This document shows positions 2,703 through 39,930 of a stretch of 39,930 bases of DNA, piece by piece (the first letter of the stretch is position 1; the number at the start of each line of letters is the position of its first letter). The stretch comes from an uncultured Pseudomonadota bacterium (GTDB lineage: Bacteria > Pseudomonadota > Alphaproteobacteria > Rs-D84), in assembly GCA_902771095.1 (NCBI GenBank), contig CACXVH010000004.1:1-39930 (forward strand), written 5' to 3'. The position numbers and the translations under genes are program-made. The notes under the pieces are model-generated. The model was not told the DNA's origin, made no database searches, and worked only from the letters and a program-made list of their open reading frames with translations.

Positions 2703-3161
2703 TTATTTAGATTGGATTTTTCCACCCGCCTTAACAATTGCTGCTTCGGCTGATTTAGACCATTTTGTTGCAACGATTGTTACAGCAGTTTTGATTTCAC
2801 CCTTGCCCAAAACTTTCAAACCATCCAATTTGCGATTTAAAATTTTTGCATCAAACAAAGTGTCGATATTAATTTCTTTTTTCGCATCGATTTTGCCAGA
2901 TTTAATGAATTTTTCAATATCACCCAAATTGATTGTTGCATATTCTTTGTGGAAAGGATTGTTAAAACCAAATTTTGGAAAACGGCGCAAAATCGGCATT
3001 TGACCACCCTGGAATGTTGCTTGTTTTCTGGAACCGGAACGGGCTTTTTGCCCCTTGTTCCCACGACCAGATGTTTTACCATATCCAGATGCCATACCAC
3101 GACCAACGCGTTTCACATCTTTTCTTGCACCAAAATTATCCATCAAAGCATTTAATTTCAT
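2703..3161 (-). CDS. rplO: 50S ribosomal protein L15
   Basis: L15, a late-assembly protein of the 50S subunit that bridges 23S rRNA domains. The 152-residue product starts MKLNALMDNFGARKDVKRVG. It shows the typical glycine- and basic-rich extension (SGRGNKGQKARSG) and the segment GGQMPILRRFPKFGF. The C-terminal globular part is ordinary. rpmD (L30) is normally found between rpsE and rplO; here the 85-base gap between them has no room for it. The gap contains only AT-rich sequence. Confidence 0.97.
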   Translation of the reverse strand: MKLNALMDNFGARKDVKRVGRGMASGYGKTSGRGNKGQKARSGSRKQATFQGGQMPILRRFPKFGFNNPFHKEYATINLGDIEKFIKSGKIDAKKEINIDTLFDAKILNRKLDGLKVLGKGEIKTAVTIVATKWSKSAEAAIVKAGGKIQSK

Positions 3162-3246
3162 TTCTTTTTCCTTTTTGTCCTATGACTACACTATTATAGT
3201 CTATTTCGCACATAATACAAGATTATGCACTCGGTTAATTTTATTT

Positions 3247-3801
3247 TTATTTTGCTTCTTCTGCCGGTTCTAATTTTTTACCATCACGACCAGCAATGAT
3301 TTCCGCCACAGTTTTACCACGACGCGCAGCAACTGTTTTCGGAGAATTCATTTTTTCAAAAGCCAAAAATGCAGCGCGAATCATATTGTTTGGATTGTTT
3401 GAACCTTGGGATTTCACAACAACGTCTTGGACCCCCAAACATTCAAACACTGCACGCAAAGCACCACCAGCAATGATTCCAGTACCAGGAACAGCACTGC
3501 GAACTACCAATTTGCTGGCACCATATTTTGCGGAACTGTCATGGTGCAATGTACGACCTTCTTTCAAAGGAACGCGAATCATTTTTGCTTTTGCTGCCTT
3601 GGTTGCTTTTTGAACAGCTGCTTGAACTTCCAAGGCCTTACCTTTGCCAAATCCAACCATACCAGATTTGTCGCCAACAACAACCAATGCAGAAAACGAC
3701 ATATTGCGTCCGCCTTTCACAGTTTTGGAAACGCGGTTAATAGAAACCAATTTATCTACTAAATTATCTGACTGTAATTTTTTATCATCAAAACGTGCCA
3801 T
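3247..3801 (-). CDS. rpsE: 30S ribosomal protein S5
   Basis: S5 is an accuracy protein of the 30S subunit at the mRNA entry site. The double-stranded RNA-binding fold is seen in the N-terminal half ([27 protein letters not shown]). The typical [20 protein letters not shown] and GGALRAVFE segments follow. I chose the ATG at 3801 (MARFDDKK) because a GGAG sits just upstream; an ATG four codons earlier has no such site. The product is then 184 residues. It lies 15 bases after rplR. Confidence 0.95.
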
Positions 3802-3816
3802 TTTACGCTCCATTTA

Positions 3817-4173
3817 TTAAATTTTCATACCGTTTGCGCGCATAGAATCGCCCAAGGCCTTTACACGACCATGATATAAATAACGACCACGATCGAAATA
3901 ATAGTTATCTTTGATACCTGCCTTGGCCATACGCTCTGCAAACATTTTGCCAACCATTTCTGCCCCGGCAATATTCCAACCTTTGCCTTTGAAATCTTTT
4001 TCTTTTGAAGATGCAGCACACAATGTGTGTCCTTTGACATCATCAATTGCCTGAATTTCAATATGACGAGCAGAACGAAATACCGACAAGCGAATTTTGC
4101 CAGGATTTTTTCTTTTCAATGCACCGCGATTTGCCAATGCACGTCTTTGTTCAGAAGATAAATGTTTTAACAT
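3817..4173 (-). CDS. rplR: 50S ribosomal protein L18
   Basis: L18 binds 5S rRNA together with L5 and helps to anchor it in the central protuberance. The 118-residue product has the basic N-terminal arm ([24 protein letters not shown]), the segment [15 protein letters not shown], and the C-terminal [25 protein letters not shown] that marks the family. It follows rplF by 45 bases; that gap contains the small CCCG-TAACAG-CGGG palindrome described separately. Length and order are normal for the spc operon. Confidence 0.97.
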
Positions 4174-4193
4174 TTCATTTTTCCTTTGTCTGT

Positions 4194-4211
4194 TTCCCGT
4201 AACAGCGGGAA
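4194..4211. repeat. Small palindrome TTCCCG-TAACAG-CGGGAA
   Basis: A six-base-pair stem with loop TAACAG in the rplF-rplR gap. The core CCGTAACAGCGG is identical to that of a second palindrome in the rplX-rplE gap (6145-6164), although the outer stem bases differ. Confidence 0.6.
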
Positions 4212-4218
4212 TTATTTA

Positions 4219-4770
4219 TTATTTCTTTTTACCTTCTTTGCGACGGACATATTCGTCTTTATAGAAGATACCTTTACCTTTATATGGGTCGGCTTTGCGG
4301 ATTTTATGAATCTTATCAGCAAATTGTCCCAACAAATTCTTATCAATACCAGAAATTGTAAATTCTGTTGGTGTTTCACCCATTGTGACGGTCAAACCAG
4401 CTGGGATTTCCATGTTAACATCATGAGAAAAACCAACAACCAATGTAAACATATTACCCTTAACAGATGCTTTGTAACCAACACCTTTCATATACATTGC
4501 TTTTGAAAATCCTTCGGATACACCTTTGACTGCCGCTTTGATATTGCGAGTCATTGTTCCCCACATAGCGCGAGATGTCTTATCTTCTGCATCTTTTGGT
4601 GTCACAACAACATGACCATCTTCAACCTTGACATCTACCAAATGCGCATTTTTTGTATCCAAAGATACTTTCAATTCGCCTTTTGACCCTTTTACAATCA
4701 CAGCGTTATCTGTCACTTCAACCGATACGCCATTTTTAATTTCTACTGGATATTTTCCTGCACGAGACAT
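4219..4770 (-). CDS. rplF: 50S ribosomal protein L6
   Basis: L6 lies near the factor-binding stalk of the 50S subunit, close to the sarcin-ricin loop where EF-Tu and EF-G act. I chose the ATG at 4770 (MSRAGKYPVEI), the standard L6 start; the frame is open further upstream but that would overlap rpsH. The product is 183 residues with two tandem alpha/beta repeats. The C-terminal signature is present (DKNLLGQFADKIHKIRKADPYKGKGIFY), followed by a lysine-rich end. It lies 16 bases after rpsH. Confidence 0.96.
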   Translation of the reverse strand: MSRAGKYPVEIKNGVSVEVTDNAVIVKGSKGELKVSLDTKNAHLVDVKVEDGHVVVTPKDAEDKTSRAMWGTMTRNIKAAVKGVSEGFSKAMYMKGVGYKASVKGNMFTLVVGFSHDVNMEIPAGLTVTMGETPTEFTISGIDKNLLGQFADKIHKIRKADPYKGKGIFYKDEYVRRKEGKKK

Positions 4771-34172: not shown

Positions 34173-36692
34173 TTACATTTTGATATCTTCACAAGTTTGT
34201 TCGTACTGATCGGCACCGCATTCCATTTTGCGGTTATCAAAGAACAATATACTTACACCTGTTTGTTTGCACTCACGCGTTGTGATTTCTGTGCAAATAT
34301 GACAAGTTCTGGATTCTCTATCGAACGAAGATCTTACCGTTTTTGTTCCGCCAGGAATATTCACTTTTAAACTATGTGATGTCGTAGGGACAGGGTTTAA
34401 AGCAGAGATAACCCCTTCGGCAACAGATCCTGACTTCATAGAAACATCACTTAACTTATTACTTGCTTTCCCCCCTCTTGTCAAGGTTTGCAAATCTAAC
34501 CCTTCATCAATATCATAAGAAATCGCATAAGGTGCATCCAACGAAGTTTGTTCAGAAGCAATCAAACCATCCATACCCAATGGCAACATTTGACATCTGT
34601 ATTGTGCCACATCTATGGATGCGTTTTCTGTCGCCTCTGATACTATTTTTTCATATTTCTTTTGATAGTTATCTTGTGCTTTGCGCAATGCAGATTGTGC
34701 AATCGCAACACGATATTGGTTCAACAAATTCGGAAAACGCGCCACTGTTGAATTGTTTCTGCGACCCTTACCGTTAATTTGTGATAAATCACGACCATTG
34801 ATACAATATTGAACCTGTTGATCAGATTCAACCAAAGAAATTGTTCTGTTGATTGTTCCCGCAATGTTATTCAATTCTTCTTCGATATTAGAGATAATAG
34901 CATTCGCATTCGGGACAGAACGATTATTTTTCTTAACCGCCGCGATATAATCTTTGACACCAATTTCACCCGGCTTTAATACTTTGCCACCGTCTTTGAC
35001 TGTTCCCGCAGCATCACCAATTTTGATTGAACCAAACGAAATCATACCAGTCACACGATATATGGTTCCATCTTTTTGTGATTTCAAAGAATTGGTTCCC
35101 ATATATTCATCCGCTGCGAACGAATTACAATTTGTTGTGGCACCGCAAAATTCAACCATTTTTTCTTCGGCAACCTTGGTACAATTTTCCAATGCCTTGT
35201 TGTCAATGTTCAAATACAACCCCATCAACATTTCATCCAAATCAGCCATTTTGAAATTCGGATTTGTTTGCTTGCAAGTCACCAATTTATCAATTGGACA
35301 CATATCATGTATATAATCGAAATCCATACCGATACAGTTCATAAAGTCCGGACCACATCTATCTTCACTTGTAAAGCATTCTTTGACCTCTGCTGTGCAA
35401 GAATCAACACGCATTGCCGCCAATTTTGCAACGACATAATCCCAAATTTGTGGTTCCATTCTTTCGCATGGGTCAATTTGAATCTTACAGAAAGAACGCG
35501 CCATATCTGGTCTTGATAAACATGCATCCATTGTTGCAGTCCCATTGCCCGCAATGTCATCTTTACATGCCGTCTGGATACAATTTGAAATATCAGTCAA
35601 ACAAGATTGACGTTTTTGTGATTCTACATTTTGTTCTGCCAATCGAATTGTCGGTGCCGCTTCACGCAGGAAATCAGCCCATACATATTGACGCACAGAC
35701 ATACACTTATCCAAAACACGTTCACAAATGAAACGTTTTGCCTCTAACATTTCCATTGTTGACGCGGTTATATCGTAAACATTTGTCGTTGCGACTTTTG
35801 TTCCGGCAACACTGCTTGATTCATTGTTTTGCATATTTTCAGATGCGATTGTGAACACACAATGCGACCAATCAGAACCACACGCATCTTCACTTTTCAT
35901 ACACTTTTTATATTCAACCAAGCATTCACCACGGTCATATTGATTTGATTCTTCCAAAGAATCTTTCAAAGCACTACGCACTGCGGCACGCGCCTGATTT
36001 AATGCGGCATCTGCTTCTGCTTTCTTTTGTGCGATACTGTTTGCCAAACCTTTGCAGTCAGAAATAATTTGGCGCGAATATATTTGCGTCAAAAGTGTCA
36101 TATCTTTTGAACAAGATTCTGGCATTTGTTTTTTACACAAATCATGTGCAGAATTATACAAACTTCTGCCAACTTTGTCAGATAAATCTATTTCATCCCA
36201 CTCTTCTTCTTCGTCTTCTTCATCATCACCGAACAGCCAAGACAAAGCATTTGTATTCTTCGCGGTTGCTTTTGTTTCGCCCGCTTTTACAATACTGCCA
36301 TCATCGTTATAAATTCTTTCGCCACCATTGAATATGATATCAGCATTTGCACCTGCTTGGATTTTTTCAACCTCTTCAGTACTGATACGTTCTGCCTCTG
36401 CCAAAGTTTTTTTAATGGTTTCCAGTTGTTCATCATATCTTGCGGCATCATCGCTGCACATACAGGTTCCACCATTTTCATTATCAGCGATACAAAATGC
36501 ATCCATACAGCCAAAATATTTATCATAACAATCTTGGTCATAAATACCAGTTGCTTCAACCTTTGCGCGCACTTTGGTTCCCGCTTGCAACGCAGATTGT
36601 TTTTTTGTTTTGGTCGCAGCAAAAGAATCAGTTGCGCCAACAAACACCGTCAACAATCCAAAAAACAAACCAAAGTTTAATATTTTTTTCAT
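34173..36692 (-). CDS. Exported 36-cysteine protein A, unknown family
   Basis: An 839-residue exported protein that I do not recognise. It has a signal peptide (residues 1-25, ending DSFAA). I count 36 cysteines. It opens with CYDKYFGCMDAFC and CMCSD. A helical region and an acidic tract after ALSWLFGDDEED follow; later come YSRQIISDCKGL, a charged helix, and a series of Cys pairs spaced by three to fifteen residues. The end has CHICTEITTREC and CEDIKM. All cysteine groups occur in the same order in the gene just upstream (36709-38913). Such a pattern implies many disulfides and a periplasmic or surface place. It is second in an operon, 16 bases after its paralogue. Confidence 0.85.
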   Translation of the reverse strand: MKKILNFGLFFGLLTVFVGATDSFAATKTKKQSALQAGTKVRAKVEATGIYDQDCYDKYFGCMDAFCIADNENGGTCMCSDDAARYDEQLETIKKTLAEAERISTEEVEKIQAGANADIIFNGGERIYNDDGSIVKAGETKATAKNTNALSWLFGDDEEDEEEEWDEIDLSDKVGRSLYNSAHDLCKKQMPESCSKDMTLLTQIYSRQIISDCKGLANSIAQKKAEADAALNQARAAVRSALKDSLEESNQYDRGECLVEYKKCMKSEDACGSDWSHCVFTIASENMQNNESSSVAGTKVATTNVYDITASTMEMLEAKRFICERVLDKCMSVRQYVWADFLREAAPTIRLAEQNVESQKRQSCLTDISNCIQTACKDDIAGNGTATMDACLSRPDMARSFCKIQIDPCERMEPQIWDYVVAKLAAMRVDSCTAEVKECFTSEDRCGPDFMNCIGMDFDYIHDMCPIDKLVTCKQTNPNFKMADLDEMLMGLYLNIDNKALENCTKVAEEKMVEFCGATTNCNSFAADEYMGTNSLKSQKDGTIYRVTGMISFGSIKIGDAAGTVKDGGKVLKPGEIGVKDYIAAVKKNNRSVPNANAIISNIEEELNNIAGTINRTISLVESDQQVQYCINGRDLSQINGKGRRNNSTVARFPNLLNQYRVAIAQSALRKAQDNYQKKYEKIVSEATENASIDVAQYRCQMLPLGMDGLIASEQTSLDAPYAISYDIDEGLDLQTLTRGGKASNKLSDVSMKSGSVAEGVISALNPVPTTSHSLKVNIPGGTKTVRSSFDRESRTCHICTEITTRECKQTGVSILFFDNRKMECGADQYEQTCEDIKM

Positions 36693-36708
36693 TTGTTCTC
36701 TCCACAGA

Positions 36709-38913
36709 TTACATATTTATATCTTCGCAAGATTCAATTTCTTGACAGAACTCTTGTTTACCACCGCTGAACGCGCCCAAAACCCCAGCGCCAACACCAC
36801 CAACCACAGCGCCAATCGCGGTTCCCCATCCGGCATTTATCATTGTTCCAGCCGAAGCCCCAGCGGACAAACCACCCGCCCCTGCTTTTAATGCTGACGA
36901 TGCTTTGCTTTCGCCACCAGTTTCGCAAACTTGTTGAATACGGCACACATGGCAATTACGCAAAGACGGTTCAAATGCGACACTTTTTATATAACTATAA
37001 TTTTTCTTGGATTCATCACGTTTTTCTGGTTTGTAATTTGTTAAACAATTTTGCTGTGCTTTTTCGACAGATTCTTTTTTACTTAATTCCGCAATTTTTG
37101 AATCCATTTCACGCAAATTGCGTTGTTCCGCAGACATCTTTGCCAACAATTTCGCAGAATTAAATACATTTGTCCCAAGTGCTTCTTTACCTTTGACTTT
37201 TTTATTCGCATCTACATTAGTTTGCGAATCGGCACACGCAGAAACAGTTTTGTCTTTTTCAAATTGTTTGAAAAATTCATCGACCGCAGCATCAGAATCA
37301 GCAACAACCTTTGCAGTTAACGCATTACTTTCTGCTTCACTTGCTGGCACCTTGTCAAATGATGTCGCAGACGCAACAATCGGCAAACACGCCATATCTG
37401 TTCCGCAAACCTTACTTAATTGTTCGCTGAAATAATTTACACAACCTGTCAACATTTGATAATCCATCTGCAACAACGCAGATTGCACAATTACATCATA
37501 TTGCGTCACATCTCTGCACGAAGTGAACATATCTTGTGGACAAAGCGCGGCGATTTCATATGCTTTTTTACCGACACATTCTGCCCGTGTAAAATTGACA
37601 CCACATTTGTCTTGCAAACATTTATCGACATCGTTTTCACAGAACTTGGTTTTCAAATATGCCAATTTATCATTTACAACAGATTGGAACCCAGGAATCA
37701 TTTCTTCACATTCTGTGATAACAGGGCAAATTCCAGCCGCGACATTAACATCGTTTAAACATTCTGTTCTGGTTGATGTTGAACAACTTTCTTCCAAACA
37801 ATTCTGCACGCGCGCCAAACAAGTTCCACGTTTATTTGTATCTGCATATTTTGCAGCATTTGCCAAAACACTTTTTGATTCCGCCGCCCAATCTTTTTCA
37901 ACATCCGTGCGCACCGCCATACATTGGTCAAGTATATTTTCGCACGCATTTGAACGGCGCTTTAATAAATTCGCATCCAGACAGTTTTCAAAATTCGTTC
38001 CGCATCCGCCCTTGTCTGCGATACAAGAACGATAAGCCAACAAACATTCACCACGATTATATTTATTTGTAGTGCTTAACATTTCAAGACGCGCCTTGCG
38101 CACAGCAGATTCAGCGATTCGTTTATTTGATTCTGCATTTGCTTTTTGTTCTTTTAAATACGAATCGTAATTTTTACAATCTTGAATAATTTGACGCGAA
38201 TAAAGCATAGATTCCATTTCCGCAGAATCACCACAAGAATCGAGTTTTGTCTGACAATATTTTGATGCCATTTTGTATAAATCATCGCCCAAAGTCACAT
38301 CTTCGCCAATATCTTCTTCGTCTTCATCTTCGTATTCTTCGTCACCGACCAACCAAGCCAAGAAATTTGTGCTGGAAATTTGTTTATTATTTGTATTTTC
38401 TGCGAACACCAGTTTTGCCTTGGCACCCAGTTGTTCGCGTTCAACACCTTCTGTATACAAATTGTCCGCTTCTTCTTGGATAGCAAGTATTGCGTTTATT
38501 TTATCTTTGGCAGAATTTATATTATCCGAACACGCACATCTTTCGCCCTGGCTTTCGTCCAGCAAACAAAATTCATCCATACACTGACGATATGCATCAC
38601 GACAATTTGCCGGTGTTGCGTCAACAGTTTCGACAGTTTCCGCCTGGGTTGTATTTGTTTGTGTTGTATTTGTTTCAGTATTTGTCTGAATATTATTTGA
38701 TGTATTTTTTGTATTTTGTGTTGTACCAGTGTTCGCATTTGTTGCCACAGATTGTGCGGTCTGAACCATAGTGCCCGTCACAACCGCAGGCATACGGGAT
38801 GCAGTTTGCGAACCACGCGGCACACCGACACGTGTGTTGGAATCGCCACGCACTGCACCAAATGCAACAGTTGGAACCAACATCAATAGCGATAAAAAAT
38901 TAAATAGTTTCAT
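36709..38913 (-). CDS. Exported 36-cysteine protein B, unknown family
   Basis: A 734-residue exported paralogue of protein A, first in the operon. Residues 1-19 form a signal peptide (ending TVAFGA). A low-complexity Thr/Asn/Gln linker follows (about residues 45-95). Then CRDAYRQCMDEFC and CACSD, FLAWLVGDEEYEDEDEED, YSRQIIQDCKN and the same run of Cys pairs follow. By my count there are also 36 cysteines, group by group in the same order as in A. CHVC near residue 660 precedes a Gly/Ala-rich hydrophobic stretch (AGTMINAGWGTAIGAVVGG), which A lacks and which resembles a glycine-zipper membrane segment. The end is CEDINM. The function is unknown. Confidence 0.85.
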   Translation of the reverse strand: MKLFNFLSLLMLVPTVAFGAVRGDSNTRVGVPRGSQTASRMPAVVTGTMVQTAQSVATNANTGTTQNTKNTSNNIQTNTETNTTQTNTTQAETVETVDATPANCRDAYRQCMDEFCLLDESQGERCACSDNINSAKDKINAILAIQEEADNLYTEGVEREQLGAKAKLVFAENTNNKQISSTNFLAWLVGDEEYEDEDEEDIGEDVTLGDDLYKMASKYCQTKLDSCGDSAEMESMLYSRQIIQDCKNYDSYLKEQKANAESNKRIAESAVRKARLEMLSTTNKYNRGECLLAYRSCIADKGGCGTNFENCLDANLLKRRSNACENILDQCMAVRTDVEKDWAAESKSVLANAAKYADTNKRGTCLARVQNCLEESCSTSTRTECLNDVNVAAGICPVITECEEMIPGFQSVVNDKLAYLKTKFCENDVDKCLQDKCGVNFTRAECVGKKAYEIAALCPQDMFTSCRDVTQYDVIVQSALLQMDYQMLTGCVNYFSEQLSKVCGTDMACLPIVASATSFDKVPASEAESNALTAKVVADSDAAVDEFFKQFEKDKTVSACADSQTNVDANKKVKGKEALGTNVFNSAKLLAKMSAEQRNLREMDSKIAELSKKESVEKAQQNCLTNYKPEKRDESKKNYSYIKSVAFEPSLRNCHVCRIQQVCETGGESKASSALKAGAGGLSAGASAGTMINAGWGTAIGAVVGGVGAGVLGAFSGGKQEFCQEIESCEDINM

Positions 38914-39356: not shown

Positions 39357-39930
39357 TTATTGAATACCAGCTACTAAATCTTGGATAATTGTACCGTTAG
39401 TGATTGTGTAAACACATTCTCCAGCGCAACCAGCTAAACAATCGGCAAGTTGAGTGTCTGGATCATCTGATATAAAATGCTCAAAACTCGCAAAATTAGT
39501 TAAATTGGAAATGGGGCAAAAACTTCCTCCTGTCAATGTATAACCTGTTATATCACACGAACAAATCGCATACTCACATGTTCCTGTTCCAAAAACTACA
39601 CCATTGGACATTCCGATTGCCCATGTTCCTGTTTCTGTCAACCCGAATACTGATGATGAAATTTCCCCTTCTTCATCATAAAACATTTGTTCGGCATCCC
39701 AATAATTATAAGCTACGTATTCATAATCGCCAGTCATAGTTCCAAGATTTGAAACATTGCATTGAACTACAGGTTGTGCATTACCACCACTTGCCGCTTG
39801 ACGGACACGCCAGCCACGGAATGTATATCCTGTTCTTGTTGGAATTGTTGATGGCGGGGTTAAAGAATCGTCATATACGCAACTTTGTGATGCAACTGGC
39901 ACATTTTGTATTTCCGTGTCACCATTATAC
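39357..39930 (-). CDS. Surface protein, copy 3 (3' part, runs off the right edge)
   Basis: The C-terminal 190 residues of a third member of the phase-variable surface family; the 5' end with any CA tract is outside the window. It begins inside the conserved region (YNGDTEIQNVP.., SQSCVYDDSLTPPSTIPTRTGYTFRGW), nearly identical to copy 2 even at DNA level. From there it diverges fully: CNVSNLGTMTGDYEYVAYNYWDAEQ and GTWAIGMSNG have no counterpart. The end returns to a shared layout: CSCDITGYTLTGGSFC, then CLAGCAGEC. Copy 2 has CWCAATSYTPDGGNQC and CAGLCAGGC. Base composition is low-GC to the stop, unlike copy 2. It is presumably secreted. Confidence 0.8.
   Translation of the reverse strand, partial: YNGDTEIQNVPVASQSCVYDDSLTPPSTIPTRTGYTFRGWRVRQAASGGNAQPVVQCNVSNLGTMTGDYEYVAYNYWDAEQMFYDEEGEISSSVFGLTETGTWAIGMSNGVVFGTGTCEYAICSCDITGYTLTGGSFCPISNLTNFASFEHFISDDPDTQLADCLAGCAGECVYTITNGTIIQDLVAGIQ

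Follow-up and report, generated by a model that had tools for sequence, protein, structure and literature searches.

The window (the whole stretch of DNA that was analysed, 39,930 nucleotides) carries two adjacent open reading frames (ORFs) for large exported paralogues, protein A and protein B. The preliminary description had placed such a pair here, and both ORFs were recovered at these positions. The gene for B comes first and that for A follows after 16 nt. Read from the sequence, each protein begins with a plausible type I signal peptide and neither has a lipobox. The features of the pair are:

34173..36692, minus strand: ORF of protein A, 839 aa, exported, 36 cysteines (all 36 cysteine columns 99-100% Cys in 74 sequences)
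36709..38913, minus strand: ORF of protein B, 734 aa, exported, 36 cysteines (all 36 cysteine columns 99-100% Cys in 78 sequences)
36456..36530, minus strand: N-terminal hallmark of A, C55-x6-CMDxFC...CxC79 (hallmark present in 10 family ORFs of the same genome)
38530..38604, minus strand: N-terminal hallmark of B, C104-C128
35859..35924, minus strand: CX6CX6CX6C module of A, first copy, C257-C278 (11/28 identical to the second copy)
35334..35399, minus strand: CX6CX6CX6C module of A, second copy, C432-C453
37981..38046, minus strand: CX6CX6CX6C module of B, C290-C311
34176..34520, minus strand: C-terminal beta domain of A, residues 725-839, with CHxC, C825 and C834 (AlphaFold2 model)
36712..36996, minus strand: C-terminal beta domain of B, residues 640-734, with an inserted helical hairpin (AlphaFold2 model)
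36766..36906, minus strand: glycine-zipper helical hairpin of B, residues 670-716, a likely membrane anchor (AlphaFold2 model and Pfam Gly-zipper matches; none in A)

The window also holds, at 39357-39902 on the minus strand, a fragmentary protein carrying a Listeria-Bacteroides repeat (PF09479, E 1.3e-4), which extends toward the contig end.

The preliminary description had counted 36 cysteines in each protein, in the same order of groups (5,2,1,4,2,3,3,4,2,3,1,1,3,2), and had called the identity of the two proteins low. A recount gave exactly this grouping, and the identity is 27-29%. Profile-profile alignment with hhalign matched all 36 cysteines of A to those of B with none left over (E=2.5e-81, 27% identity, 630 columns). 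Pairwise alignment with MAFFT matched just 32/36, because the C-terminal inserts of A and B differ. By residue type, identity in the profile alignment is 100% for cysteine, 40% for histidine, 36% for glycine and at most 31% for the rest. If cysteine positions are taken as independent, the probability of a full 36-cysteine match by chance is about 10^-59.

The same set is fixed among orthologues. Alignments were built from congeneric genomes and 80 named loci in public genomes, and include 73 complete A and 77 complete B sequences. Outside the signal peptide, the orthologues of A and of B have exactly 36 conserved cysteine columns each, every one of them 99-100% Cys (74 A and 78 B sequences from Enterousia and close relatives). 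Counted from the first conserved cysteine, exactly 36 are present in 72/73 A and 76/78 B sequences, so extra unpaired cysteines are excluded in these two proteins. Cysteine is the sole frequent residue type that is kept in practically all of its own columns, most others being 99-100% conserved in well under half of theirs. Scattered cysteine loss, which the preliminary description had named as evidence against its reading, did not occur; orthologues of A and B lose essentially none. The other outcome that it had named, a clear match to a known family, did not occur either in the libraries searched. As judged from these alignments the set neither loses nor gains members, which is the pattern expected if every cysteine were partnered. 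The landmarks listed earlier are likewise all present in both proteins (CMDxFC..CxCSD, WLxGD with an acidic tract, YSRQIIxDCK, GECL, CHxC and CEDI[KN]M), the WLxGD and acidic tract being kept just partly among orthologues. A spacing of CX6C occurs ten times in A and eight times in B, against 1.4 and 1.8 times in shuffled sequences. The two CX6CX6CX6C stretches of A appear to be copies of one unit, and four of their 11 identical residues are cysteines.

A and B are not a lone pair. The genome consists of 818,487 bases, and ORFs built from its stretches were searched with iterative profiles. This resulted in 14 family ORFs, two of which are halves of one split gene, giving about 13 family genes that occupy 30.5 kb (3.7% of the genome). 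Two matches are weak, with E about 1e-5, and a short member has 323 aa. The hallmark C-x3-Y-x2-CMDxFC is found in 10/14 of these ORFs. The earlier view of A and B as adjacent paralogues stands, and they are two of about 13 members rather than a pair by themselves. Family members have in common an N-terminal helical cysteine module, reaching roughly to residue 380 of A, and are divergent beyond it. In most paralogues, a Ser/Thr/Asn/Ala-rich, mostly basic low-complexity linker of about 80-200 residues lies between the signal peptide and the hallmark (seen in members at L074, L071, L072, L073, L068 and L070); it is short in A. The split gene (L067, G000:C28, ORFs 1469-2953 and 3018-4220, minus strand) is an A-like paralogue divided into ORFs of 494 and 400 aa. 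Similar proteins are full-length in congeners (L066, L076, L083), and the split reflects either a genuine break in the gene or an error of assembly. A large disulfide scaffold had been called uncommon in such a reduced-looking genome, a view that finds no support in this form; the genome is rich in exported cysteine-rich proteins. By a simple and crude signal-peptide rule there are 32 exported cysteine-rich or family genes, with an approximate share of 7.4% of the DNA.

Named relatives of A and B belong to Candidatus Enterousia (merdequi, avistercoris, excrementavium) and to many gut metagenome-assembled genomes, including ruminant and horse samples, and the window is accordingly assigned to Enterousia, a genus of the order Rs-D84. 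The order, including Enterousia, is described in PMC12306168. By profile search the family is present in 188/190 genomes of Rs-D84 (the two others are both from one family of the order, f2) and in 0/380 genomes of other alphaproteobacterial orders. As far as sampled, the family has been found only in Rs-D84 and marks this order. No relative turned up in one scan of viral contigs, and a viral origin was set aside. In the tree, the A and the B sequences each fall into a well-supported clade of their own, and most other paralogues are on a different branch. A B relative encoded in G027, which belongs to a different family of Rs-D84, clusters with B (support 0.997); the split between A and B thus predates the split of those families. 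The preliminary description had proposed a check of co-occurrence in related genomes, and wherever a named locus extends far enough, the gene for A is the next one downstream of B; this adjacency is near-constant. Together with the 16-nt gap, it makes a putative A-B complex no more than plausible. In many congeners there is a third paralogue upstream of B and beyond infA, in divergent orientation. It has about 29 conserved cysteines (L087-L166, own copy L068:130-2499), and its cysteine count is odd in 54/63 congeners. Gene neighbours gave no lead to function; the frequent ones (infA, a YgiW-like BOF protein and an MscS-like channel) point nowhere.

The preliminary description knew no matching family, and our searches agree. 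Searches of the window proteins against Pfam, NCBIfam and PHROGs gave insignificant matches only, none above the curated cut-off, and a profile search of PDB sequences gave a best E of 0.16 for B and no match for A. We found no paper on this 36-cysteine family. On these searches A and B represent a new protein family, specific to the order as far as sampled. AlphaFold2 models were built on alignments of 95 (A) and 82 (B) sequences and are of moderate confidence (pLDDT 78 and pTM 0.50 for A, pLDDT 74.5 and pTM 0.44 for B). Foldseek with these models found nothing at E <= 0.001. In a second fold comparison, the best scores for the whole-protein models (Z 6.7 for A and 6.8 for B) are inside the tool's stated noise. 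The candidates that were noted in this way (Foldseek/VIA), RNA-phage coat proteins for the C-terminal sheet of A (Z 6.7, 65 residues) and large helical assemblies for B (Z 6.8), were read as common arrangements and not kinship.

Both proteins are predicted to be mostly helical with a C-terminal beta domain. In the model of B this domain holds a helical hairpin of apparent glycine-zipper type (residues 670-716). Pfam Gly-zipper models match 10/21 B orthologues weakly (PF13441 in 10/21, PF13488 in 8/21 and PF13436 in 1/21). For PF13441 the best E is 2.6e-4, the single PF13436 match has the lowest E of all (3.6e-5), and the B protein of the window itself reaches only E 8.3. None of these models matches A. 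The hairpin of B is a likely membrane anchor. A glycine-zipper hairpin beside a small beta domain is the architecture of SlyB and Rick_17kDa_Anti proteins, and B, not A, may resemble them in this respect, the Pfam matches being weak. B differs in that it is not a lipoprotein and is cysteine-rich, with 734 aa of which the hairpin accounts for little. Helical units braced by regularly spaced cysteines are also known from the twin-CX9C (CHCH) hairpins of the mitochondrial intermembrane space and from the Hcp/Sel1 proteins of Helicobacter. A and B would be similar in plan, but have CX6C spacing and no Pfam match, and they are far larger than CHCH proteins.

The large disulfide scaffold that had been proposed gains indirect support, and the disulfides themselves are still a matter of inference. 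They are argued for by export, even cysteine counts, paired cysteine losses and a conserved DsbA. All nine apparently intact hallmark members of the genome (A, B and seven others with 28 to 44 cysteines) have an even count. Across 23 paralogue clusters cysteines tend to vanish in pairs (264+323, 376+391 and 55+194 in the numbering of A); the partners are absent together in most clusters that lack either one, with exceptions. The paired losses correspond to few evolutionary events on the tree, and are thus support and not proof. The odd counts of the third paralogue (54/63) fit within-chain pairing less well there, and its odd cysteine might bond to another chain.

As to the machinery, another check proposed earlier, a DsbA-like protein is found in 37/40 genomes, and the eight orthologues that were aligned are membrane-tethered with a CPYC/CPFC site. 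DsbB and VKOR were each found in 0/40 genomes. DsbD was found in one of the 40, outside the genus, and in none within it. Thus an oxidant must be assumed. Self-recharging of DsbA via cysteines in its membrane helices was considered and rejected, as those cysteines are not conserved. Some Clostridia have a DsbA without a found partner, and in E. coli oxidised glutathione can serve to recharge the DsbA of C. botulinum (PMC12453122). The order Rs-D84 is described as fermentative, lacking respiratory chains and probably partner-dependent (PMC12306168). A DsbA with neither a recognisable DsbB or VKOR nor, as reported, a respiratory chain, and yet apparently very many disulfides, is a concrete problem that this family makes testable. 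We suggest, as a speculation that we hold to be rather unlikely, that this whole fermentative, partner-dependent order may base its envelope on its own disulfide-braced family, hundreds of cysteines per proteome being oxidised without a known DsbA-recharging enzyme (no DsbB or VKOR), via small-molecule oxidants of the gut or an unknown enzyme.

The explanation that we consider most likely, and that we nevertheless put forward tentatively, is that A and B are a disulfide-braced helical scaffold of the envelope anchored through B. A and B would be the most conserved pair of an order-specific, exported, helix-rich family in which paralogues join the same N-terminal cysteine module to variable C-terminal heads. 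About 18 intramolecular disulfides would brace the fold of each, formed after Sec export via the membrane-tethered DsbA-like protein. B would be held in an envelope membrane by the glycine-zipper hairpin within its C-terminal beta domain, and A, from the same gene pair and without the hairpin, would sit with B. The two together could give the cell envelope a rigid scaffold that resists proteases. We infer each of the scaffold role, the membrane anchoring, the contact between A and B and the disulfides. Hardly anything is known of the surface biology of Rs-D84, which are gut bacteria that remain uncultured, and this family is the kind of protein by which they could meet a host or partner. The 36 fixed cysteines are a clear target for structure and redox studies.

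The strongest rival is that these are surface adhesins or proteins of partner recognition, in which a conserved cysteine stalk would present variable C-terminal heads toward host cells, mucus or a partner microbe. We find this doubtful for A and B, the C-termini of which are themselves conserved, and in which the searches revealed no known domain for surface anchoring or of an autotransporter. It suits the variable paralogues better, as the N-terminal part is common to the family and the C-terminus divergent, and some runs of cysteines look furin/EGF-like by eye. Many further exported cysteine-rich proteins in the same genome, and an order thought to be partner-dependent (PMC12306168), are also consistent with it.

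A structural role for A and B in the type IV secretion apparatus of the order, or in its secretin complex, is improbable. The apparatus is widespread (VirB4 in 36/40 genomes and a secretin in 37/40), and the genome itself has a VirB11-type ATPase and TcpQ. The genes for VirB4, the VirB11-type ATPase, and TcpQ with the secretin as a gene pair are scattered (L189:3543-5960, L203:1632-2591, L219:14438-16992), so linkage could not expose a partner. No family gene adjoins VirB4, the VirB11-type ATPase or the secretin in this genome, and in one genome (G029) VirB4 and a secretin are present but nothing matches the family. TraN of F-type conjugation is a cysteine-rich secretion protein; like it, A and B are large and exported and have many conserved cysteines. 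They differ in that neither TraN (Pfam) nor any other secretion model matches A or B, and no tra genes adjoin them.

We give a similarly small chance to an intermolecular meshwork, in which family members would be cross-linked by disulfides into a covalent coat. The third paralogue, with its mostly odd count (54/63), would leave one cysteine free for another chain, and a coat of this type is believed to exist in chlamydiae (PMC6812762). The chlamydial proteins OmcB and OmcA are the closest functional analogue of A and B, without homology: they too are exported cysteine-rich envelope proteins of a host-dependent bacterium, and their disulfides are thought to stiffen the envelope (PMC6812762). 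No chlamydial family matched A or B in Pfam (E up to 10) or NCBIfam (E up to 1). The chlamydial proteins cross-link between molecules, whereas the counts in A and B suggest bonds within the chain; these are even almost without exception, and an outside partner is therefore not needed. Unlike the chlamydial case, Rs-D84 is reported to keep MrdA, RodA and MreB, which makes a peptidoglycan wall likely (PMC12306168). Considered as a kind of system, the braced scaffold preferred here would have its nearest counterparts among disulfide-rich proteins of the envelope, the chlamydial ones included. That the cysteines bind metal or iron-sulfur clusters instead of forming disulfides is very unlikely: CHxC and CxC motifs occur and the organism ferments and is probably an anaerobe (PMC12306168), but Sec signals place A and B outside the cytoplasm, no cluster-binding Pfam model matches, and the cysteines are even in number and tend to be lost two at a time.

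The genome encodes other very cysteine-rich exported proteins that fall outside the family profile, with up to 2071 aa and 78 cysteines. They are located at G000:C11:8928-15143, C9:686-4435, C5:45874-49554 and C7:20625-22211 (L196, L194, L232 and L192, respectively), and have repeats that by eye are InlB-like, leucine-rich-like and EGF/furin-like. At L198:18426-19508 and in the adjoining ORF is a pair of proteins, one MotA/ExbB-like by eye and the other with an OmpA domain. The pair (clusters 7 and 9 in L110 and L149) is near A and B in about 17 congeners, and resembles a proton-driven motor pair.
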